A stretch of DNA of 64,000 nucleotides from Variovorax sp. OAS795. Lineage in GTDB: Bacteria; Pseudomonadota; Gammaproteobacteria; Burkholderiales; Burkholderiaceae_C. How positions within the stretch are numbered: position 1 is the stretch's first letter; each line of letters opens with the position of its first letter. Made by a program: the position numbers and the translations under genes. Below, one piece after another: positions 20,369 to 31,300 of this stretch. The notes under the pieces are model-generated. The model had not been told where the DNA came from and did no database searches. It saw nothing but the letters and a program-made list of their open reading frames with translations. The stretch covers positions 186,001 to 250,000 of the forward strand of contig NZ_JBEPOH010000002.1 in the NCBI RefSeq assembly GCF_040546685.1, written 5' to 3'.

Positions 20369-21307
20369 TCAGCGCTTCGAGAGGCCGGCCTGCGCGACCG
20401 CGGCACGCAGCGCTTCCATCTCTTGCGCATCGGGCGCTTCGGTCGGCGGGCGCACCGTGGCGTTGGCAAGCACGCCGGCCAGGTACATGCCGCCCTTCAT
20501 GCGCGCATGCGCCTCGCCCGTGGGTTCGCCGCCGCCGTAGACGGCGTCCTTCAGCGGCGTGATGAGGGCCTGCACCGCCATGGCCTTCTTCAGGTCGCCG
20601 GCCTTGACCGCATTCCACAGGTCGATGATCAACTGCGGAATGAAGGTGGCGAAGCCGACCAGCGCGCCATCGACACCCTGGACCATCGAGGCCAGCAGGT
20701 ATTCGTCGTGGCAGGTCAGGATCGCCTTGGACGCATCGGCCTCGCGAATGGCCTGGATGTCGCGGGCGTATTTGTTCATGTCGCGCTGGCCAACCTTGAA
20801 GGCCTGCAGGTAGGGCAGCCGGGCCAGCTCGGCCAGCAGCTGCGACGAGTAGGAGGCGCGGGTCCAGGCCGGGTACACGTGGCAGACCAGGTCGAGCTCC
20901 GGCGCGGCGCGGTGGATGGCCTCGAAGTATTGCAGCGCATGGCCCGGCGTGAAGCCGAAGCGCAGCCAGTGGTGCGGCGGCATCACGTCGAGCGCGACGG
21001 CGCCGGCGGCCGCGGCGGCCCGCGCATGCTCGGCGGCGTCGGCCAGGCCCTCGCAGACGATCGACGAGATCACCGGCATGCGGCCGCGCAGCTCGTCGGC
21101 CACGATGCGGGTCACCTCGGCGCGTTCGGCCGGGGTGAGCGAGAACACCTCGCCGGTGTGGCCGTTGGTCATGATCGCCACCACGCCGTCGTGGCCGGCT
21201 AGCCAGGACGCGAGCTTGCGCAGCGCCGGCTCGTCGATGCGGTAGTCGGCGGTAAAGGGGCATGAAATGGCGGGGATGATCCCGCGATAATTCGCGATGG
21301 AAGGCAT
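20369..21307 (-). CDS. Dihydrodipicolinate synthase family enzyme
   Basis: This 312-residue DapA/NAL-family lyase has a divergent phosphate loop (TNGHTGEVFSLT instead of GTTGE) and a candidate Schiff-base Lys in QAFKVGQRD, with Tyr in CHVYPAW. The motif changes relative to true DapA favour a catabolic role on sugar acids or related 2-keto acids. It is the first gene of a three-gene unit and is divergent from the LysR regulator at 21420, which probably controls it. Confidence 0.85.
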   Translation of the reverse strand: MPSIANYRGIIPAISCPFTADYRIDEPALRKLASWLAGHDGVVAIMTNGHTGEVFSLTPAERAEVTRIVADELRGRMPVISSIVCEGLADAAEHARAAAAAGAVALDVMPPHHWLRFGFTPGHALQYFEAIHRAAPELDLVCHVYPAWTRASYSSQLLAELARLPYLQAFKVGQRDMNKYARDIQAIREADASKAILTCHDEYLLASMVQGVDGALVGFATFIPQLIIDLWNAVKAGDLKKAMAVQALITPLKDAVYGGGEPTGEAHARMKGGMYLAGVLANATVRPPTEAPDAQEMEALRAAVAQAGLSKR

Positions 21308-21419
21308 GCTGTGTCTCCGTTGTGGTCCAGGGGTGCAGGAATGAGCGCATCTTTGCCGCCGGGGCAGGTACCGTCCAATACTCGAATCGCATACAACTAT
21401 TCAACCGATCGCGCAGCCC

Positions 21420-22364
21420 ATGGGCCCCGGCAACCGACCTCTCGATCTCGAATGGCTGGAAGACTTCCTCGCCCTGGCCGAGAGCGGCAATTTCTCGCGC
21501 GCGGCGCTGGCGCGCTCCATCGCCCAGCCCGCGTTCAGCCGGCACATCCGCGCGCTGGAGGAATGGGTGGGTGTCGACCTGGTCGACCGCAGCGCGCACC
21601 CGGCGGCGCTTACCGCGGCGGGCAAGCGCCTCCAGCCGCTGCTGCAGGAGGTGCTGGCCGCGCTGGAAGCCGCCCGCATCAAGGCGCGCGCGGCGCACGA
21701 CCTGGCCGCCGCCAGCCTGAGCTTTGCCGCGACGCACGTGCTCTCGCTGACCTTCTTTCCGCGCTGGCTGGGCCGCGTGGAGGCGCGGCTGAGCCTGGGG
21801 CCGATCCAGACCATCTCGGACAGCGCGCAGGCCTGCGAAGACCTGATGCAGCAGCGCCGCGTGCAGTTCGTGCTGTGCCACGGCCATGCCGGCGCGCCGG
21901 GCCGGCTCGACGAGGCGCAGTACCCCATGGTGCGCCTGAGCGAAGACCTGCTGGTGCCGGTGGCGGCGCCCGATGCGCAGGGCGCGCCGCTGCATGCGCT
22001 GGGCGCAGGCCGGCCGCCGCCGGTGCTGGCCTACGGAGAGGCGTCGGGCCTCGGGCGCATCATGCGGGCGATCCAGGACAGCGAGCTGGGCAAGGACTTC
22101 GCGCCCTCGCTGCCGGTGGTGTTCACCGCGCACCATGCCGTGCTGCTGCGCACCCTTGCGCTCGAAGGGCGCGGCCTGGCGTGGCTCCCCATGAGCCTGG
22201 TGGCGGACGACCTGCGCAGCGGCGCGCTGGTGGATGCCGGCGCGGGCGGCTGGCGCGTGCCGGTGGACATCCGGCTGTACCGCCAGGCCGCCCACATGTC
22301 GCCCGTGGCGGAGTCGCTGTGGCAGCTGGTCGGCGATGGCGCTGGGGCGGGCCTCGCGTCCTGA
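21420..22364 (+). CDS. LysR family transcriptional regulator
   Basis: This 314-residue LysR regulator has an N-terminal winged helix (LEWLEDFLALAESGNFSRAA, QPAFSRHIRALEEWVGVDLVDR) and a C-terminal periplasmic-binding-like effector domain. The divergent promoter region is only ~110 bases (21308-21419), typical of LysR activators adjoining their target operon, here the DapA-family/Bug/SDR genes. It is convergent with the oxidase operon, 16 bases away. Confidence 0.93.
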   Translation: MGPGNRPLDLEWLEDFLALAESGNFSRAALARSIAQPAFSRHIRALEEWVGVDLVDRSAHPAALTAAGKRLQPLLQEVLAALEAARIKARAAHDLAAASLSFAATHVLSLTFFPRWLGRVEARLSLGPIQTISDSAQACEDLMQQRRVQFVLCHGHAGAPGRLDEAQYPMVRLSEDLLVPVAAPDAQGAPLHALGAGRPPPVLAYGEASGLGRIMRAIQDSELGKDFAPSLPVVFTAHHAVLLRTLALEGRGLAWLPMSLVADDLRSGALVDAGAGGWRVPVDIRLYRQAAHMSPVAESLWQLVGDGAGAGLAS

Positions 22365-22380
22365 ACACGCCGGCCCGCGT

Positions 22381-22749
22381 TCACTGAAAGCAGGGCGACA
22401 GCACCCACGCGGCGAACCACTGCGACGCGACCACCAGCGTGAACAGCGCGCCGACGCCCGTGGCCGCGGCCGCAAGAAATCGCTGGCGCACCGCGGGCCA
22501 TGCCGCATCGTCGTCGGGCGTCGGGCTGGCCGGCGACTCGGCATGCAGGCGGTGCCACTCGTACGCCGCGAGCAGCGTGGGCGCCAGGCAGCCCAGCAGC
22601 GCCACCAGGCTCATCGCATGCACCAGCAGCGTGGTCTGGGAGTCGCAGGCGTGCGGCACCGCGGCGTAGGCCAGCGTCTGGTAGAGCAGGGCGAAGGTGG
22701 GCACCACCAGCAGCGCCAGCCATGTCATCGAGCCCCGGAGCGTTGTCAT
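22381..22749 (-). CDS. Small membrane protein of the oxidase operon
   Basis: This 122-residue protein has three predicted membrane helices (LALLVVPTFALLYQTLAYAA; LLVHAMSLVALLGCLAPTLL; FLAAAATGVGALFTLVVASQ) and two or three Cys facing opposite sides. No known family is recognised. It is the last gene of the PQQ-dehydrogenase/caa3 operon, 12 bases after subunit III, so a role as an accessory or fourth subunit of the oxidase is reasonable but unproven. Confidence 0.7.
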   Translation of the reverse strand: MTTLRGSMTWLALLVVPTFALLYQTLAYAAVPHACDSQTTLLVHAMSLVALLGCLAPTLLAAYEWHRLHAESPASPTPDDDAAWPAVRQRFLAAAATGVGALFTLVVASQWFAAWVLSPCFQ

Positions 22750-22761
22750 CGCCGGCCTCCT

Positions 22762-23361
22762 TCAGATGCGCGGCACGCCATAGATCACCGCATAGATCGG
22801 CAGCCACGAGAACACGACGAAGTACCAGTACATCGCGTTCTCGCTCACGTCGGCAAAGCGCTGGCCTTCCACCGGCCCGGTGAAGAGCAGCACGTCGAGC
22901 ACGGCCGTGTCGTAGGTATCGGTGAGCAGGTGCACCGTGTGCAGGCCGAGCAGCGTCCAGACCACCGAGCCGTAGGCGTTGCTGTCCCAGCGCGTGTTCA
23001 GCGCCGCAAACTCGAAGCCCCGCAGCACCAGGAACACGACGGAGAACAGCAGGCACACCAGAAGCCACACGCGGGTGCGCCGGAGGTCGCAGGCCTCGGC
23101 CGCGCGCTTGGCCTTGTGGTTCGGCCAGAGGCTCGCGAGCAGGATCAGCGTGTTGGCCGATCCCCAGAGCAGGTCGGGCGGCGGGGCGCCAAGCGGCCAC
23201 TGGTCCGACTGGCTGCGCAGGTACAGGTAGGCGCCGATGCCCAGCGCGAACAGGGTGCTCTCGATGGCGATGAGGCCGAAGGTGCCCCACCACATCAGGC
23301 TGCGGTGGCCGAACGCATAGCTCGGCAGGCCGGAGACGTCGAGCTCGCGCCGCGCGGTCAT
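22762..23361 (-). CDS. ctaE: Cytochrome c oxidase subunit III
   Basis: This 199-residue subunit III is of the short bacterial type with five membrane helices (WWGTFGLIAIESTLFALGIGAYLY; LLGLHTVHLLTDTYDTAVL; YWYFVVFSWLPIYAVIYG). The conserved ExT and His segments of the family are present. Subunit III supports proton delivery to subunit I in aa3 oxidases. It overlaps subunit I by four bases. Confidence 0.9.
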   Translation of the reverse strand: MTARRELDVSGLPSYAFGHRSLMWWGTFGLIAIESTLFALGIGAYLYLRSQSDQWPLGAPPPDLLWGSANTLILLASLWPNHKAKRAAEACDLRRTRVWLLVCLLFSVVFLVLRGFEFAALNTRWDSNAYGSVVWTLLGLHTVHLLTDTYDTAVLDVLLFTGPVEGQRFADVSENAMYWYFVVFSWLPIYAVIYGVPRI

Positions 23362-25322
23362 GGCTTGCGCTCCAGGCTCAGGTGCACCGCGGTTTCGGAG
23401 CGCCGCGGCCAGAACCACGCGGTGAGGGCGATCGCGATCGGGATGCTGCCCCAGACCACCGCCCACGGCGTGAAGACGGAGCCGATGAAGAGCCCGGTGA
23501 CGGCCACCGCGCTGACGAAGGGCCAGATCGTCGGATCGGGAAAGTTCACGCGCAGGTCGGGCCGCGCATCGAGCACGGTGGTGGCGAGCAGCTCGCGCGT
23601 GTCCGCCGCAAGGCCGCCCACATGCGTGAAGGCCGGCGAGCTGCGCTGGGCTTCCGCACGCGGCGCCTCCCAGAGCGGCTCGCGGCCGTGCACCACCGGA
23701 ATCGCGTGGAAGTTGCATGGCGGCGGCGGCGACTCGGTGGCCCATTCGAGCGTGCCGGCGCCCCAGGGGTTGGCGCCCGCCATCGCGCCCCGGCGCAGGC
23801 TGCGCACGGCGTTCACCATGAAGAGCAGCACCGACACGGCGATCACCACGGCGCCCACGGTTGCGACCAGGTTCAGCGTGTCCCATCCCAGCCCTGCCTG
23901 GTAGGTGTAGACCCGGCGCGGCATGCCCCTGAGGCCGAGCAGGTGCATCGGGAAGAAGGCCACGTTGAAGCCGATGAAGAAGAGCCAGAAATTCCAGCGC
24001 CCAAGCCGCTCGCTCATGAGCCGGCCGGTGACCTTGGGGTACCAGTAGTAGAAAGCGCCGAAGAGCGGGAACACCGCGCCGCCGATCAGCACGTAGTGCA
24101 GGTGCGCCACCACGAAGTAGCTGTCGTGCACCTGCAGGTCCAGCGGCACCGAGGCCAGCATGATGCCGGTCATGCCGCCCAGCACCAGGATGAAGAAGAA
24201 GCCGAGCACGAAGAGCAGCGGCGTCTTGAAGTCGAGCCTGCCGCTCCAGAGCGTCGCGATCCAGCAGAAGATCTGCACCGCCGAAGGAATCGCGATCAGC
24301 ATGCTGGCCGCGGTGAAGAAGCTCTTGCCGAGCTCGGGCAGGTTGACCGCGAACATGTGGTGCACCCAGAGCCCGAACGCCAGGAATGCGGTCGCGATCA
24401 GCGCCAGCACCATCGCCGTGTAGCCGAACATCGGCCGCCGCGCAAAGGTCGGGATGATGGCCGAGATGAACCCGAGGCCCGGCAGGAAGATCAGGTACAC
24501 CTCCGGGTGGCCGAAGAACCAGAACAGGTGCTGCCAGAGCACCGCGTCGCCGCCTTCGGCGGGGTTGTAGAAGTGCGTGCCCACGAGCCGGTCGGTGATG
24601 AGCGTGGTGCTGGCCAGCATCACCGAAGGCATCGCGAACAGGATCATGAAGGCCGTGACCAGCATGGCCCAGGCGAAGAGCGGAATGCGGTTGAGCGTCA
24701 TGCCCGGCGCGCGCAGCTTGAACACCGTGGTGATGACCACGATGGCCTCGACCAGCGCCGAGAGCTCGGTGAAGGTGATCATCTGGGCCCAGAAGTCGGT
24801 GCGCTTGCCGGGCGAAAAATCGGGCCCCGCAAGCGGCACGTAGGAGAACCAGCCCACGTCCGGCCCGGCACCCAGGAAGAACACGACGTAGAGCATCAGC
24901 CCGCCGAACAGGAAGATCCAGTAGGCGAAGGCATTGAGGCGCGGAAACGCGACGCTGCGCGTGCCCAGCATCAGGGGCAGCAGGTAGATGGTCACGGCCT
25001 GCATCACCGGCACGGCGAAGAGAAACATCATCGTCGAGCCATGCATCGTGAACAGCTGGTTGTAGAGGTCCGGGCCGACCAGCGTCGAACCCGGTCGTGC
25101 AAGCTGCAGCCGCATGACGAAGGCCAGCAGCCCGCCGGCCACGAAGAAGCCGAAGGTGGTGACGATGAAGCGGCGCGCAATCGCCTTGTGGTTGACGGCC
25201 GAGAGCCAGCCCATGACGCCCGGCGGATCGCGCCATGTCGCGTCGAGCGCGGCAGCTTCGCGCGAGCCCGGGCCGGGACCGTCCTTCAGGCGGGAGGCGG
25301 GCGCGTGGCGGGGCTGGTCCAT
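23358..25322 (-). CDS. ctaD: Cytochrome c oxidase subunit I (caa3-type)
   Basis: This 654-residue heme-copper oxidase subunit I retains the heme and CuB ligands: His in TMHGSTMM, HPEVY with the His-Tyr crosslink pair (Glu274, Tyr276), HHMF and AHLHYV. Against Rhodobacter aa3, the D-channel entry Asp132 aligns with Ser123 (GTRSVAFPR) and the K-channel Lys362 with Gln350 (IPSAVQIFCW). Spacings (123-274-350 here, 132-286-362 there) agree, so the substitutions look real. It reduces O2 with electrons from cytochrome c. Proton pumping may be weak or absent, which is inference. Confidence 0.93.
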   Translation of the reverse strand: MDQPRHAPASRLKDGPGPGSREAAALDATWRDPPGVMGWLSAVNHKAIARRFIVTTFGFFVAGGLLAFVMRLQLARPGSTLVGPDLYNQLFTMHGSTMMFLFAVPVMQAVTIYLLPLMLGTRSVAFPRLNAFAYWIFLFGGLMLYVVFFLGAGPDVGWFSYVPLAGPDFSPGKRTDFWAQMITFTELSALVEAIVVITTVFKLRAPGMTLNRIPLFAWAMLVTAFMILFAMPSVMLASTTLITDRLVGTHFYNPAEGGDAVLWQHLFWFFGHPEVYLIFLPGLGFISAIIPTFARRPMFGYTAMVLALIATAFLAFGLWVHHMFAVNLPELGKSFFTAASMLIAIPSAVQIFCWIATLWSGRLDFKTPLLFVLGFFFILVLGGMTGIMLASVPLDLQVHDSYFVVAHLHYVLIGGAVFPLFGAFYYWYPKVTGRLMSERLGRWNFWLFFIGFNVAFFPMHLLGLRGMPRRVYTYQAGLGWDTLNLVATVGAVVIAVSVLLFMVNAVRSLRRGAMAGANPWGAGTLEWATESPPPPCNFHAIPVVHGREPLWEAPRAEAQRSSPAFTHVGGLAADTRELLATTVLDARPDLRVNFPDPTIWPFVSAVAVTGLFIGSVFTPWAVVWGSIPIAIALTAWFWPRRSETAVHLSLERKP

Positions 25323-25362
25323 GGCGTGTCCTGGCGAGTCCTGGCGAGTCCTGGCGTGTGTG

Positions 25363-26331
25363 TCAGCGCAGCGTCTGCAGATAGCCGACCAGTGCGTCCA
25401 TGTCCTCGGACGAGAGCTGGGTGGCGGGCATGTAGGTGCCGGGCTTGATCTGCTGCGGATCGGCGATCCAGCGCTTCAGGTCGTCCGGCGTGTTGGAGAG
25501 GCTGCCCGCGGCCAGCGTGCCGCGGCTGGCCATGTGCGTGAGGTTCGGTCCGCGCACGGCCTGCGCCGGCGTGCCGTCGATCGCGTGGCACATCGCGCAG
25601 CTCGATCGCATGAAGATCTCGCGCCCCCGCAGCGGCGGGCCCGGCGGCGGCTCGGGGGCCGGGCTGCGCTGCGCCGCGGCCCAGGCCTGGTAGCGCTCGG
25701 GCGCATCGGCCACCACGAAGAAGGCCATCAGCGCATGCTGCGAGCCGCAGAACTCCGCGCACTGGCCGCGGTACACGCCTTCGCGGTCGGCGCGAAAGTT
25801 CATCGTGGTGGTGCGGCCCGGAATCAGGTCCTTCTTACCCGCCAGGCTCGGCACCCAGAAGCTGTGGATCACGTCGTCGGCCTTGAGCGTGACGATCACG
25901 GGCCGGCCGGTGGGCACGTGGATCTCGTTTGCCGTGATGAAGCTGTCGGCCACCTGCGGCTCCACGTAGCGCACTTCCCACCACCACTGGTGGGCCGTGA
26001 CCTCGAGCCGCAGGGCGCCGTCGGTGGACATCCGCGCGAGCGCGCGGTCGGTGAAGATGCTGGCCGCAATCAGCACGAGCAGCAGCAGCGTGGACGCCGC
26101 CAGGGCCGCGGCCACGGCATGGCGCCGGCCGGGTTCGGGCCGGCCCACGGTGGACAGGTCGGGCGCGCTCTGCGCATTGCCGCGGCCCGCCCGCATCAGC
26201 GCGATCAGCAAGGCCGCGAGCACGGCCGCGAACACCAGCCCGCAGACCGCGAGCGTCAGCATCCACAGCGCATGCACATGGCCGGCCTGCGGGCCGAAAG
26301 GTGCGAGAACGTGGTGCAGCGAGTCCATCAT
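25363..26331 (-). CDS. ctaC: Cytochrome c oxidase subunit II with fused cytochrome c domain
   Basis: This 322-residue subunit II has two membrane helices, a cupredoxin domain with the CuA site (HSFWVP and CAEFCGSQHALM), and a C-terminal class I cytochrome c domain (CAMCH heme motif; axial Met in TYMPATQ). The fusion defines a caa3-type oxidase. The start at 26331 overlaps the preceding cytochrome c stop by four bases. Electrons would run from the lipoprotein cytochrome encoded at 26328-26888 to this heme c, then to CuA and subunit I. Confidence 0.92.
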   Translation of the reverse strand: MMDSLHHVLAPFGPQAGHVHALWMLTLAVCGLVFAAVLAALLIALMRAGRGNAQSAPDLSTVGRPEPGRRHAVAAALAASTLLLLVLIAASIFTDRALARMSTDGALRLEVTAHQWWWEVRYVEPQVADSFITANEIHVPTGRPVIVTLKADDVIHSFWVPSLAGKKDLIPGRTTTMNFRADREGVYRGQCAEFCGSQHALMAFFVVADAPERYQAWAAAQRSPAPEPPPGPPLRGREIFMRSSCAMCHAIDGTPAQAVRGPNLTHMASRGTLAAGSLSNTPDDLKRWIADPQQIKPGTYMPATQLSSEDMDALVGYLQTLR

Positions 26332-26888
26332 TTCGTCCCCGGGCGCGCCGGTTCGGGGTCGCGCGCCGCTTCCGGTTCGTTGGCCTGCAGGGTGTCGCCG
26401 CGGCCCGGCGCCACGTCCTTGCGCAGCTGGCCGCTCATGGAGCGCACGTAGGCGGTGAGTTGCCACACCTGGTCTTCGTTCAGGTGGCCGCCGAACGAGG
26501 GCATGCCGTTGGGCCGCCCCTGCACGATGGTGCTGAAGATCTGCGCCGGCTCGCTGCCGTAGCGCCACTGGTCGTCGGTGAGCGCCGGCCCCATGCCGCC
26601 GCCGCCCTGCGCGTGGCAGCCGGCGCAGTTGTACCAGCGGTACAGGCGCTTGCCCTGGCTCACGCTGTAGGCGTTGTCTTCATACCCCTGGCCGTTGCCC
26701 GCGGGCAGGCGCACCGGGTCGTCGCGCGGCCCGGCGGGTTGCAGCGAACTGGTTCTCGGCGCTTGGGGGCTCGGGCTCGCCTGGTTGTCCGGCGGCGTTT
26801 CGAAGCGGCGCATCTCGCGCTCGCAGCCGGCCAGCGCCATGGCCAATGCGAGGGCAATCGCGAGGGAGGGCACCGCGCTGTCCGTCAT
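26328..26888 (-). CDS. Lipoprotein cytochrome c
   Basis: This 186-residue protein has a lipobox (LAGC at about residue 20) and one class I cytochrome c domain, with heme motif CAGCH and likely axial Met in NGMPSF. It overlaps its neighbours by four bases on both sides and lies between the XoxJ-like protein and subunit II. It is the natural carrier from the PQQ dehydrogenase to the oxidase, in the position of XoxG/MxaG. Confidence 0.9.
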   Translation of the reverse strand: MTDSAVPSLAIALALAMALAGCEREMRRFETPPDNQASPSPQAPRTSSLQPAGPRDDPVRLPAGNGQGYEDNAYSVSQGKRLYRWYNCAGCHAQGGGGMGPALTDDQWRYGSEPAQIFSTIVQGRPNGMPSFGGHLNEDQVWQLTAYVRSMSGQLRKDVAPGRGDTLQANEPEAARDPEPARPGTK

Positions 26889-27727
26889 GGCTGCTCCGGC
26901 TGCGCAAGCGGCATGCGCGGCACCGCATGGTCGTCGAGGATGCGGTCGATGTCGGCGCCGCGCCGCGCGATGAAGTCGTCGAGCCGCGCCTTCATCGCGC
27001 GGTCGCCCTTGCGCACGCCCATGGCAATCGAGAACGCGAACGGCAGGTCCGGATCGGCCGGTGCCGCGGCCGGGGTGATGCGCAGCGGCGGCGTGGCGCG
27101 TGAGGCGAAGTAGCCCGCCTGCGGCCCCCAGACCACCGCGGCGTCGAGTTCCCCGCGCGCCACCGCATCGACCATGCGCTGCGCCGGCGGCGCTTCGCCG
27201 GCCACCGTGAAGCCGACCACGTGGCGCACCGCGTCGTGCCGCGCCAGCACATGGCCGGGCGGTGTCGCGGCCAGGTTGTTGCCGACCAGCTGCACGCCGA
27301 TGCGCAGCGCAGGCAGGCGGGCGTCGTCGAACGAGCGCAGCCCGCGGGAGGCCGTGGCACCGGTGTCGTGCTGCACGAAGACATAGGTCGAGCGGTAGTA
27401 GGGCCGCGTGGTCAGCAGGCGCTCGTCGCCCGCGGGCACGCCGATGACCACGTCGCAGGCATTGGCGCCAAGCGTCTTGCGCACGAAGCCGCGGCGGTCG
27501 GGCAGCCACGCGTACTGCAGCGGCAGGCCGAGGTCGTCGGCGAGCAGGCGCGCGATGCGGTTCTCGAAGCCGCTCTGGTCCTCGCGCGAGTAGGGCAGGT
27601 TGTCGGGCTCGGCGCAGACGCGCAGTGCCGCGGGCATGCCGGCTGCAACAGGCTCCTGCGCGCACAGCAGCGCGAGCAGGGCGGCGCATGCGGCGCGCGC
27701 AAGATCAGTCGGGCAGCTTGAAGACAT
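26885..27727 (-). CDS. XoxJ/MoxJ-like quinoprotein-associated periplasmic protein
   Basis: This 280-residue secreted protein has the periplasmic substrate-binding fold of XoxJ/MoxJ (LRVCAEPDNLPYSREDQSGFEN at the start, the family's hallmark; then LIARLLADDL-like helix). XoxJ is encoded beside lanthanide or calcium methanol dehydrogenases and is thought to help mature or activate the apoenzyme. It follows the dehydrogenase gene with a 23-base overlap. The signal peptide ends near VAAG. Confidence 0.88.
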   Translation of the reverse strand: MSSSCPTDLARAACAALLALLCAQEPVAAGMPAALRVCAEPDNLPYSREDQSGFENRIARLLADDLGLPLQYAWLPDRRGFVRKTLGANACDVVIGVPAGDERLLTTRPYYRSTYVFVQHDTGATASRGLRSFDDARLPALRIGVQLVGNNLAATPPGHVLARHDAVRHVVGFTVAGEAPPAQRMVDAVARGELDAAVVWGPQAGYFASRATPPLRITPAAAPADPDLPFAFSIAMGVRKGDRAMKARLDDFIARRGADIDRILDDHAVPRMPLAQPEQP

Positions 27728-29519
27728 AGAGCTTGCCGCCCTTGCGCGTGGCCGTGGGCAGGTCCTTCATGGCGTTGGCGAAGCCGAGCGCGGCGGTGCC
27801 GTCGCGCGCGTCGAGGTCTCCGGAGACCACCGCGCCGGCCCAGCCCCCGACACCCGAGAGCACGGCCACGTACTGCTTGCCGTCGGGGCCGCGGTAGGAC
27901 ACCGGCTGGCCGATGATCCCGGAGTCGGTCTTGAACTCCCAGCGCACGGCGCCGGTGTGGGCGTCGAGGGCCTTGAACCAGCCGTCCATGGTGCCGTAGA
28001 AGACCACGTCGCCGGCGGTGGCGAGCGCGCCGCTCCAGACCGGAAAATTCTCTTCCTTCGACCACCTCGCCTTGCCGGCCACAGGGTCCCATGCGGTGAA
28101 GCGGCCGCGGTGGCCGCCCGGTCCGCCGTACATCCGCGCCTCGGTGCCCACATAGGGCGTGCCCGCGATGTAGCTCACCTGGGAAGACTGGCTGTCCTGG
28201 CACAGGTTCTGGTGCGGGATGTAGACCAGGCGCGTGCGCGGTGAATAGGCCGAAGGCTGCCAGTCCTTGGCGCCGGGCGAGGCCGGGCAGATCCCGCGGA
28301 TGGTCTTGCCGACCTTCGGCTCCTTGGTGGGGTCGTAGCGCAGGCGCCCCGTCTTCAGGTCCACGCCGGACGATGTCGTCACCTTCACGAAGGGCTGGGC
28401 CGACAGCACCTCGCCGCTCGCGCGATCCATCACGTAGACGTGGCCGTTGCGGTCGGGGTGGACCAGCACCTTGCGCGCCTTGCCGCCCACCTCGGCATCG
28501 ATCAGGATGTTCTCGTTCACGCCGTCGTAGTCGTGCAGGTCGTGCGGGCTGAACTGGTAGAACCAGACCGCCTCGCCGGTGTCGGGCCGGCGCGCGAAGA
28601 TGCCGGCGGTCCAGCGGTTGTCGCCGGGGCGCTGTTCGGGATTCCACGGGCCCGGATTGCCGGTGCCGTAGTAGATGAGGTCCAGCCCGGGGTCGTACGA
28701 GATCCAGCCCCACACATTGCCGCCGCCGATCTTCCAGGCCCCGGGCGGCCACGAGCTCACCCCCAGGTCCTTGCCGCGGTCCTGCGCATAGAAGGACTTG
28801 AACTGCGGGCCGATCAGCACGTCGCTGTCGGGCCCGGTGCTCCATGCGCGCCAGGCGATCTTGCCCGTGGCCGCGTCCAGCGCGGTGAGCCAGCCGCGCA
28901 CGCCGAACTCGCCGCCGCTGTTGCCCACGAGCACCTTGCCCTTGACCACCAGCGGCGCCATGGTCATGGTTTCGCCGGCGCGGATGTCGCCGAGCTTCGC
29001 GCGCCAGAGCTCGGTGCCGCTGGCCGCGTCGACCGCGATCGTCTGGTTGTCCAGGGTGTTGAAGAACACGCGGCCATCGGCATAGGCGGCGCCACGGTTG
29101 ACCTGGTCGCAGCAGGCCACGCCTTGCGAGCCGGCGTCGGGCTTGGGCTCGAACTTCCACTTGAGCGGCGCGCCGGGCTGGGTGAGGTCGAGCGCGAAGA
29201 GCACGTTGGGGTAGGGGCCGACGATGTACATCGTGCCACCGACCACCAGCGGCGCCGCCTCGTGTCCGCGCACCACGCCCGTCGAGAACGTGAAGGCCGG
29301 CTGCAGCTTCGAGACGTTGGCGGCCGTGATCTGGGCGAGCGGGCTGAATCGCGTGCTCGCAGGGTCGCCAGCGGCCATCGTCCATTCGCCTTCGCCGGGC
29401 GGCGGGGTGTCCGCCGGGGCCGCCGGCTGTGCGAAGGCCATTGCGAACGGCAGGAGGCCGCCGGCCAAGAGGCCGGTCCATCCTGCGCTGTGCTTCTGTG
29501 TGTGGTTGTGGCTTCGCAT
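27705..29519 (-). CDS. PQQ-dependent dehydrogenase, methanol/ethanol family
   Basis: This 604-residue secreted quinoprotein is an eight-bladed propeller. Visible features are a leader to about AFAQ, the vicinal disulfide Cys pair in GVACCDQ, the metal-site Glu in NSGGEFGV, the tryptophan-docking GGGNVWGW, and the PGPWNPEQRPGDNRW segment. In XoxF/MxaF/ExaA relatives that segment is followed by a D-x-D or D-x-x motif whose first Asp is the catalytic base; here the motif is FARRPDTG, with Arg311 at that place and Asp313 at the lanthanide-ligand position. The metal-binding Asn before WGW also appears to be Val. Its substrate is therefore uncertain, and it may not be a standard alcohol dehydrogenase. 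Confidence 0.88.
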   Translation of the reverse strand: MRSHNHTQKHSAGWTGLLAGGLLPFAMAFAQPAAPADTPPPGEGEWTMAAGDPASTRFSPLAQITAANVSKLQPAFTFSTGVVRGHEAAPLVVGGTMYIVGPYPNVLFALDLTQPGAPLKWKFEPKPDAGSQGVACCDQVNRGAAYADGRVFFNTLDNQTIAVDAASGTELWRAKLGDIRAGETMTMAPLVVKGKVLVGNSGGEFGVRGWLTALDAATGKIAWRAWSTGPDSDVLIGPQFKSFYAQDRGKDLGVSSWPPGAWKIGGGNVWGWISYDPGLDLIYYGTGNPGPWNPEQRPGDNRWTAGIFARRPDTGEAVWFYQFSPHDLHDYDGVNENILIDAEVGGKARKVLVHPDRNGHVYVMDRASGEVLSAQPFVKVTTSSGVDLKTGRLRYDPTKEPKVGKTIRGICPASPGAKDWQPSAYSPRTRLVYIPHQNLCQDSQSSQVSYIAGTPYVGTEARMYGGPGGHRGRFTAWDPVAGKARWSKEENFPVWSGALATAGDVVFYGTMDGWFKALDAHTGAVRWEFKTDSGIIGQPVSYRGPDGKQYVAVLSGVGGWAGAVVSGDLDARDGTAALGFANAMKDLPTATRKGGKLYVFKLPD

Positions 29520-29641
29520 GGACTGTCCGTCCGACAGGGGAGTAGCAGCAACTTAGCTGCGCACGGGCCGGCCGCTGTAGGGCCGCAGGCCGACCGGCCA
29601 TCGGCCCCCATTGATGAGCGGACCGGGGCGCTTGCCGCTGC

Positions 29642-30592
29642 TTAGCGGGGCGGCATGGCGCCGGGGGCAGAGTGCGCGGGCGCGTCGCCCTGCAGCAGCC
29701 GTGCGGCGGCCGCGAGCGCCACCACCAGGTAGGCGAGTCCGGCCGGCACCCACATGATCAGCCCGCCGAGGCGCTGGTCCTCGAGCAGGTCGAAGCCGAG
29801 CGCCGGCGTGCTCGCCCCATAGGCCGGGTACCAGGGCACGGTGGAGAAAGTCAGCAGTGCGCCGAGAGCGCCGGTGTGCACCATGGTCGTGAAGAGATAC
29901 AGCATGGAACTGCCATGCCCTGCGCGCGAGGCCCCGCCCAGCGGCGGCCACCAGAACAGCAGCGCCGTCACCAGAAAGCTCGCATGCTGCAGGGTGTGCA
30001 CGCCCGGGCTCTGCAGCGCGGCCTCGAAGAACGGCGGCAGGTGCCAGACCCAGAGCGCGAGCCCGTGCAGGGCCCAGGCGACCGGCGCACAGGTCAGCAC
30101 GTCCCAGGTGGCCGCCACGGCCGGCAGCCGCACGAAGCGCCCGGCCGGGGCACGCCAGGCCATGGGCAGCGCCCAGGTCCAGACCGCCAGGGGCCGGCCG
30201 ATCACGAGCAGCGGTGCCGCCAGGATCATGAGCACCTCGTGCTGCACCATGTGCGCGGAAAAAAGATGGCCGCCGAGCGCATCGAGCGGCGAGACCAGCG
30301 CCACCACCAGCGCGAGCCAGCCGGCGCCGAAGGACGCGGCGCGCGCCATGCCGAGCCCGCGCCCCGCGCCCGCCTTGCGCCACAGCCGAAACAGGCCGGC
30401 CGCGTACAGCAGCAGGCTCGCGCCGAGACAGGCCAGCACCCAGGGCTCGAAGCTCCATCCGATCGCGGCCACGGGCGCGTCCGCGGGCTGCGGTGCATGC
30501 GCGCCCGCGAGGGGCGGGGCGAGCAGCAACAGCAGAAGCAGCGCGGCGCGTGCGATGCGCCGCGAGCCGGTCGGCGGCATCACGGGTGGCAT
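29642..30592 (-). CDS. ctaG: CtaG-family cytochrome oxidase assembly protein
   Basis: This 316-residue integral membrane protein of the caa3_CtaG family has about seven helices and conserved His/Trp motifs (SAHMVQHEVLMILAAPLLV; GVHTLQHASFLVTALLFWWP). CtaG proteins of this type are needed for assembly of caa3 oxidase, probably in copper delivery to CuA or CuB. It lies upstream of the PQQ-dehydrogenase gene on the same strand, with 122 bases between, and 15 bases after the racemase gene. Confidence 0.9.
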   Translation of the reverse strand: MPPVMPPTGSRRIARAALLLLLLLAPPLAGAHAPQPADAPVAAIGWSFEPWVLACLGASLLLYAAGLFRLWRKAGAGRGLGMARAASFGAGWLALVVALVSPLDALGGHLFSAHMVQHEVLMILAAPLLVIGRPLAVWTWALPMAWRAPAGRFVRLPAVAATWDVLTCAPVAWALHGLALWVWHLPPFFEAALQSPGVHTLQHASFLVTALLFWWPPLGGASRAGHGSSMLYLFTTMVHTGALGALLTFSTVPWYPAYGASTPALGFDLLEDQRLGGLIMWVPAGLAYLVVALAAAARLLQGDAPAHSAPGAMPPR

Positions 30593-30607
30593 GCGCCGTA
30601 GTCTGGA

Positions 30608-31300
30608 CTAACTTGGCCGATTCTGCAGCGCGTCGAGAGCGCTCCAGGTTTCAAGGATCAGCGTCTCGATGTCGTGCACCTGGCGGCCCGTCGCCGCGGC
30701 CACGCTCTGGCGATAGGGCGGCATGTTCGTGCATTCGAGCACGATGTGCTCGACGGTGGGATCGGCCTCCACCAGGCGCATGGCCGCTTCGACCACGTTG
30801 CGCTGCGCTTCGGCGAGGTCCAGCACCGTGTCGTCGTTCAGGATGCGGCGATGGAGCTCGCAGCCGGGGCGCAAGCCCGCCACCGGCGTTCCCTCAGGGA
30901 CACCCGCGGCTTGCAGAATGCGCGGCGTCAGTGAATGCGCATCGAAAGTGACGATGCCCGGATGGGCGTGGCGCCGCACCTGCAGCAGGCTCGAAGTCAC
31001 GACCGGCACAGGGACCGCGTCGGACAGCAAGGCCTGGTACGCGGCCAGGAAGCCGCAACTGGTGGTGATCATCGACGCACCGTCGGCGGCGAGCCGGACC
31101 GCGGCCTCGATGAAGGGCTGGATCAGCCGCGGGTCGGCCTGCTCGACGATGCGCCGCGGCGACGCGCCTTGGACGGTGGCAAAGCGCACGGGAATGCCGG
31201 CGCGCGCGTAAGTCTCGGGATTGCCGACGTCGCCGGGCGGCCGCGGAAAGCGCGTGTCGAGCATCAGCACGCCGAGGAAGCCGCGCGGGGCAGCCGTCAT
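30608..31300 (-). CDS. Aspartate/glutamate racemase-family protein
   Basis: This 230-residue protein of the Asp/Glu/hydantoin racemase family has the two catalytic Cys environments TTSCGF (near residue 80) and LECTNMPPY (near residue 190). Substrate could be an amino acid, hydantoin or maleate-like acid. It starts with a four-base overlap with the Lrp-type regulator, suggesting amino-acid metabolism and coupled expression. The stop is only 15 bases from ctaG. Confidence 0.82.
   Translation of the reverse strand: MTAAPRGFLGVLMLDTRFPRPPGDVGNPETYARAGIPVRFATVQGASPRRIVEQADPRLIQPFIEAAVRLAADGASMITTSCGFLAAYQALLSDAVPVPVVTSSLLQVRRHAHPGIVTFDAHSLTPRILQAAGVPEGTPVAGLRPGCELHRRILNDDTVLDLAEAQRNVVEAAMRLVEADPTVEHIVLECTNMPPYRQSVAAATGRQVHDIETLILETWSALDALQNRPS

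Follow-up and report, generated by a model that had tools for sequence, protein, structure and literature searches.

The 64,000-nucleotide stretch of Variovorax sp. OAS795 analyzed here (the window, G000:C2:186001-250000) lies on the 826-kb contig C2 of a 6.09-Mb genome in two contigs and carries, on the minus strand, a compact block of genes for a pyrroloquinoline quinone (PQQ)-dependent alcohol dehydrogenase, its periplasmic partners, and a caa3-type oxidase (Table 1). We are confident in reading this block as a XoxF3-type, probably lanthanide-dependent alcohol dehydrogenase module with its own oxidase. The dehydrogenase and XoxJ-like genes share 23 bases; overlaps of 4 bases join the XoxJ-like gene to the cytochrome c gene, the latter to coxB, and coxA to coxC, and gaps of 40 and 12 bases separate coxB from coxA and coxC from the small-protein gene. 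The matches to TIGR03075, TIGR03871, TIGR02866, and TIGR02891 all exceed the curated cut-offs, and the Pfam families COX3, COX2, Cytochrom_C, and Cytochrome_CBB3 are also matched within the block. A preliminary description of this DNA had listed the seven genes from the dehydrogenase to the small protein, with overlaps and gaps that are correct to the base, but it overlooked ctaG, the first gene of the module here, which stands upstream on the same strand. In most relatives, ctaG stands after coxC.

Table 1. Features of the dehydrogenase-oxidase block (positions in the window)
Feature	Coordinates	Strand	Supporting match or observation
CtaG (Caa3_CtaG family, caa3 oxidase assembly factor)	29642-30592	minus	PF09678, E 2.2e-58
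Intergenic gap CtaG/dehydrogenase, 122 bases	29520-29641	no strand	
XoxF3-like PQQ-dependent alcohol dehydrogenase, 604 aa	27705-29519	minus	TIGR03075, 646.9 bits
XoxJ-like periplasmic binding protein, 280 aa	26885-27727	minus	TIGR03871, 293.4 bits (cut-off 212.15)
Lipoprotein mono-heme cytochrome c, 186 aa	26328-26888	minus	PF13442, E 7.2e-17
CoxB, subunit II, CuA and fused heme c domain	25363-26331	minus	TIGR02866, 156.2 bits (cut-off 147.7)
CoxA, subunit I, 654 aa	23358-25322	minus	TIGR02891, 714.3 bits (cut-off 670.75)
CoxC, short subunit III, 199 aa	22762-23361	minus	PF00510, E 5.9e-08, profile positions 130-254 of 258
Three-helix small membrane protein, 122 aa	22381-22749	minus	73 distinct homologues by position, directly following CoxC

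Identity of the dehydrogenase and its partners

The closest solved chain to the dehydrogenase is PDB 4mae (632.5 bits), which we take to be a XoxF, and the XoxF-named chains 6oc5 and 6dam also score above 4tqo and 1w6s. Asp330-Tyr-Asp332 of the dehydrogenase aligns with the corresponding motif of the XoxF chains, at which 4tqo has Asp-Tyr-Ala. The extra aspartate of XoxF is presumably the second one of this D-x-D motif, two residues after the catalytic Asp, and both motif aspartates are kept in 81 of 81 aligned dehydrogenases (the window and 80 loci, read by alignment columns). The extra Asp is described as essential for XoxF in the available part of PMC10875860. A calcium MxaF-type methanol dehydrogenase system would belong to the same TIGR03075 family, and the MoxJ and MoxG models do match here, below their cut-offs; however, the second Asp, the higher scores to XoxF-named chains, and the lack of an extra gene between the dehydrogenase and XoxJ-like genes disfavor such a system, which we consider highly improbable.

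In a tree of 105 rows, the window dehydrogenase falls into a clade of 88 rows (SH-aLRT support 99) with a protein of Methylocella tundrae (L093/L191; L denotes loci and G genomes), and this clade is separate from the remaining PQQ dehydrogenases of G538 to G540 included in the tree, to which we assigned the inferred labels XoxF5, MxaF, and others. M. tundrae T4 has xoxF3 within an xoxFGJ cluster, according to the accessible portion of PMC11102522. Because it groups with the protein of a species with a reported xoxF3, and with a gene content like that of published clusters, the window dehydrogenase looks like a XoxF3. The name has also been given to a Methyloversatilis gene (PMC5023235, available in part), which may or may not belong to the window clade. 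Both this tree and the CoxA tree described below came from quick searches without a mixture model, drew long-branch warnings, and had near-duplicates (mainly Mesorhizobium and Microvirga) dropped.

The XoxJ-like protein has its best PDB match in 6onp, a XoxJ (E 1.1e-41). The cytochrome c, with an LAGC lipobox and a CAGCH heme site, occupies the place of XoxG; it reaches only 43 bits against TIGR03872 (cytochrome_MoxG, cut-off 147.8), and its assignment as XoxG is by position and heme motif only. Among its relatives, the lipobox Cys is present in 73 of 78 and CxxCH in all 78. CoxB carries the CuA motif GQCAEFCGSQHALM and a CAMCH heme site, and its best PDB match is the Thermus chain 2yev_B (E 8.8e-56). 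Judged by these motifs, the enzyme is a caa3 oxidase of the A family, its subunit II bearing both CuA and heme c. The Thermus caa3 oxidase (2yev) likewise has a heme c fused to CoxB; unlike in the window, its subunit I is named as a I+III fusion, and we know of no PQQ dehydrogenase linked to it.

Conservation of the dehydrogenase-oxidase linkage

Linkage was followed in the best 80 of 559 relatives from a scan of genome_contigs, counting the 66 loci whose downstream flank reached 5.5 kb or more and omitting 14 in which it was shorter. Cytochrome c, CoxB, CoxA, and CoxC are all encoded within 9 kb of the dehydrogenase at 61 of the 66 loci, two of which (L093 and L108) have the oxidase on the opposite strand. 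Within the same distance, cytochrome c is found at 65 loci, XoxJ at 58, and CtaG at 57, and a small protein is present by position at 58. The strict order dehydrogenase-XoxJ-cytochrome c-CoxB-CoxA-CoxC occurs at 43 loci and the same order without XoxJ at 11 more, with the oxidase placed upstream at 3. Read from record titles, the carriers belong to Pseudomonadota, Acidobacteriota, Gemmatimonadota, Verrucomicrobiota, and Rokuibacteriota; strains of Ramlibacter, Azospirillum, and Mesorhizobium are among the named isolates with the module. Among 398 genomes of the window's phylum, eight (its own included) have a dehydrogenase match at E ≤ 1e-200, and in 8 of 8 a same-strand CoxA match lies no more than 3 kb away. 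Distances among dehydrogenases and among CoxA proteins correlate (r 0.64 over 53 loci with one of each; 0 of 999 permutations), with shared ancestry uncontrolled, and 29 of the 53 loci have the same nearest neighbor in both. Chance adjacency of the block genes is ruled out by the recurrence of the linkage in distant genomes.

A single module from the quinoprotein to oxygen, as proposed in the preliminary description, is thereby supported (61/66; 8/8): the gene-neighborhood check, set beforehand as a possible refutation, favors the dehydrogenase-oxidase link. The accompanying statement that the oxidase is normally encoded elsewhere fails for this clade, in which linkage is the rule and has already been described (PMC4013037 and PMC10875860, both available in part).

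The window module is a further example of blocks already described in other bacteria. In the portion of PMC4013037 at hand (2014), COX operon type a-II often accompanies MxaF-related PQQ dehydrogenases and has a COX1 with a COX4-like fusion and a five-helix COX3; it shares with the window the PQQ dehydrogenase, the C-terminally extended COX1, and the five-helix COX3. The extension of the window CoxA comprises 110 residues past alignment position 545, whereas the median for five canonical CoxA is 9, a comparison of length. In the xoxF3 systems of 2024 (PMC10875860, in part), most Acidobacteria and some Verrucomicrobia and Gemmatimonadetes encode a protein of ~110 to 130 aa between CoxIII and CtaG. 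The XoxF3 cluster content (cox genes, ctaG, XoxG, XoxJ, and a small protein near the dehydrogenase) is present in the window, which differs in having CtaG in front of the dehydrogenase. From gene content, we infer that COX operon type a-II and the xoxF3 system are one thing. XoxF5 systems such as Methylobacterium xoxFGJ have XoxF, the XoxG cytochrome, and XoxJ, as the window does; to our knowledge, XoxF5 clusters include no oxidase, and none was found in 19.9 kb at the probable XoxF5 locus of the window's own genome (L015).

A different explanation is that a general caa3 terminal oxidase was merely carried along, with electrons entering a common cytochrome c pool that serves any oxidase. The genome itself has six COX1-family matches, and two oxidase types (GHPEVY and GHPWVY) adjoin these dehydrogenases, so that the pairing is not exclusive. 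In addition, 6 of 11 CoxA rows with at least 56% identity in the 398 genomes (L146 to L151, five of them from one family, f51) have no such dehydrogenase nearby in the fetched stretches. This explanation is nevertheless unlikely in view of the linkage across several phyla and the overlapping genes; moreover, three further PQQ dehydrogenase loci above the cut-off in the same genome have no oxidase gene in the 16 to 20 kb fetched for each.

Several points weigh against the reading as a XoxF3-type module with its own oxidase. Besides the six CoxA rows just named, no oxidase was found near the dehydrogenase at 5 of the 66 loci (L059, L084, L092, L097, and L106; L084 has only 0.7 kb upstream); of the dedicated oxidase proposed earlier, the conserved linkage stands and the exclusivity does not. 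The XoxF3 label leans on the M. tundrae neighbor and on gene content, in a tree without named XoxF1 to XoxF5 references. The dehydrogenase of L026 (L026:9404-11272, genome G119; same family, outside the set of 81), 69% identical to the window's and in a module of the same type, has Asp-Tyr-Asn for Asp-Tyr-Asp, and no XoxJ match was found in its 17-kb stretch. In M. tundrae T4, a xoxF3 gene is up in anoxic cells with methanol and N2O versus oxic cells (PMC11102522, in the part available), which sits poorly with a strictly oxygen-bound role in that organism; the oxidase of the M. tundrae locus L093 lies on the other strand and is of another type.

Proton-channel residues of the module oxidase

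The window CoxA can be aligned to solved A-family oxidases, placing S123 at the entry Asp of the D channel and Q350 at the Lys of the K channel; E274 and Y276 are kept, and E186 is gained. Channel residues were equated by alignment and by the numbering that we take to apply, apart from the published list given below, and E186 is presumed to lie in helix IV, with membrane sides likewise following the topology that we assume.

The residue tally covers 65 CoxA (window and loci), near-duplicates included. At the D-channel Asp position, 62 aligned proteins have N (41), S (8), D (6), A (5), E (1), and T (1), leaving 56 of 62 without Asp; at the K-channel Lys position, 64 have Q (61), A (2), and T (1), with Lys in 0 of 64. 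Near the active site, 60 of 63 retain the Glu of GHPEV, and the active-site Tyr is present in all 63 aligned. Twenty-four control CoxA, taken from the capped set of top loci when 36 genomes of the class were searched and with the window's own excluded, have the D-channel Asp in 23 and the K-channel Lys in 21, with Met or Ile in two others, and five canonical CoxA from the study genomes keep Asp, Lys, and Glu. The K-entry Glu motif of subunit II is missing in the window CoxB and in 80 of 83 overall, and the three CoxB that have it adjoin canonical CoxA. The essential residues of both proton channels are given as D132, K362, E286, and subunit II E101 in the accessible part of PMC8239185. With S123, Q350, and no subunit II Glu in the alignments, the window oxidase does not have the canonical A-family D- and K-channel residues.

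In a 94-row CoxA set, whose groups are defined by three of these residues so that frequencies rest on the tally of 65 and the 24 controls, Glu occupies the window E186 position in 79 of 79 Gln-bearing CoxA, in 0 of 10 of the GHPWVY type (nine Gly, one Thr), and in 0 of 5 canonical CoxA (Gly). Only 1 of the 24 controls has this Glu, and that one bears the Gln. The CoxA tree, for which the Asp, Lys, and GHPEV-Glu columns were masked, requires two changes to account for the lost Asp, four at the Lys position, and one from Glu to Trp. Type 1 (Asp lost, Gln) comprises the window and most linked loci. Type 2 (Asp kept, Gln) stands beside a dehydrogenase at L048, L066, L107, and L153, and without one in the fetched stretches at L020 (own genome), L151, L154, and L162 to L165. 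Type 3 (Asp kept, GHPWVY, Ala or Thr for Lys) adjoins a dehydrogenase at L028, L096, L103, L104, L156, L157, and L159; it is on the other strand at L093 and without a dehydrogenase at L155 and L158.

Since the canonical D- and K-channel residues are lost, the module oxidase, as its alignment suggests, probably takes up protons differently, and it may pump less. More tentatively, and with rather less than even confidence, we propose that the XoxF3-linked caa3 enzymes are a widespread A-family subgroup without both canonical proton routes, with an alternative route perhaps via E186, reduced or no pumping, a purpose-built role as the sink for electrons from a lanthanide alcohol dehydrogenase, and the two-cysteine small protein as a constant subunit that has escaped recognition. 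If the linked oxidases function without three of the four essential residues, they would provide a natural experiment on proton uptake and pumping. Loss of the K-channel Lys is not in itself new among A-family oxidases, as shown by the two Met/Ile controls and by PMC8239418 (in part), which discusses K-channel variants and losses on an archaeal COX1 tree. We found no published statement on channel loss in this oxidase group, subscription papers being outside the search; the available text of PMC10875860 has 0 occurrences of "proton," and that of PMC4013037 has 0 each of "xoxF," "proton channel," "D-channel," and "K-channel."

Three observations on CoxA stand beside these. Both oxidase types, GHPEVY and GHPWVY, surround one dehydrogenase at L104. 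The genome encodes a second Gln-bearing, K-less CoxA (L020, G000:C1:2548138-2550006) that keeps the D-channel Asp and E186; the 13-kb stretch retrieved for it contains no dehydrogenase. A Lys-Arg pair (CoxA residues 173 and 174, window positions 24801-24806) immediately precedes helix IV, on what we presume to be the periplasmic face; its residues are present in 55 of 58 and 57 of 58 Asp-less CoxA and rare elsewhere, and the pair is possibly a docking site.

Proposed electron route and the small membrane protein

From motifs and linkage, we infer how the module would work in this organism, including its substrate, metal, and electron route and what XoxJ, CtaG, and the small protein contribute. 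The dehydrogenase, with PQQ and a lanthanide, would oxidize methanol or another short alcohol in the periplasm and pass electrons singly to the membrane-anchored cytochrome c. From there, they would move through the heme c and CuA of CoxB and the heme a of CoxA to a3-CuB, the site of oxygen reduction, a route that would bypass quinone and bc1. XoxJ would help to activate the dehydrogenase, CtaG would deliver copper, and the small three-helix protein would either assist assembly or serve as an accessory subunit.

Methanol is a plausible substrate because the genome has pqqC, fae (two copies), RuBisCO-family matches (two), and a probable XoxF5; most methanol oxidation, however, may fall to an enzyme other than this module. 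A stretch of ~50 kb on the large contig (G000:C1:2615156-2663620), likely a methylotrophy region, holds pqqC, both fae, one RuBisCO-family match, and the probable XoxF5 with a XoxJ-like neighbor. This other dehydrogenase (G000:C1:2651801), 47% identical to the window's, groups with probable XoxF5 rows. The main methanol enzyme could thus be this XoxF5-like protein, the module serving as a secondary alcohol or aldehyde oxidizer and a fast electron sink. We regard this division of roles as a real possibility, though not the favored one; it would fit the location of the module on the 826-kb contig and its patchy occurrence in the family, and the noncanonical proton channels could mean weak coupling. 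In the window's family, three of 150 genomes, among them its own, have the module at E ≤ 1e-180, and no such match was found in G122 of the same genus; as up to 8 candidates per genome were scored in this set and up to 3 in the set of 398, absences are soft.

The small protein of the module has no Pfam or NCBIfam match, and a Pfam search of 67 members produced isolated matches at E values up to 0.1, no family matching more than four members. No convincing sequence relative was found in the PDB (best E 0.01, TMH4C4). Relatives seeded by sequence occur at only 8 of 66 loci; by place, there are 73 distinct ones, two of 75 candidates (L148 and L149) having been dropped as cytochrome. In an alignment of 66 of the 73 and the window's own, C35 is Cys in 66 of 67, C120 is Cys in 66, and F91 is Phe in 63. 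The AF2 model has three helices (mean pLDDT 90.6). Because the helix ends in this model put C35 and C120 on one side, a disulfide or metal site is likely. The small protein of xoxF3 systems has been likened to vesicle-mediated transport proteins (PMC10875860, in the part available); a fold search with the window protein, in which the sequences of that paper were not used, found nothing at E ≤ 0.001, the top match having E 1.0, and we rejected this assignment.

Scans of 21300-31000 were uninformative for both sigma-70-like promoters (0 sites versus 0.4 expected) and terminator-like sites (4 versus 3.1 expected). With no tie to the module, a LysR gene (21420-22364, plus strand) converges on its end and lies opposite a DapA-like gene (region 20369-22364).

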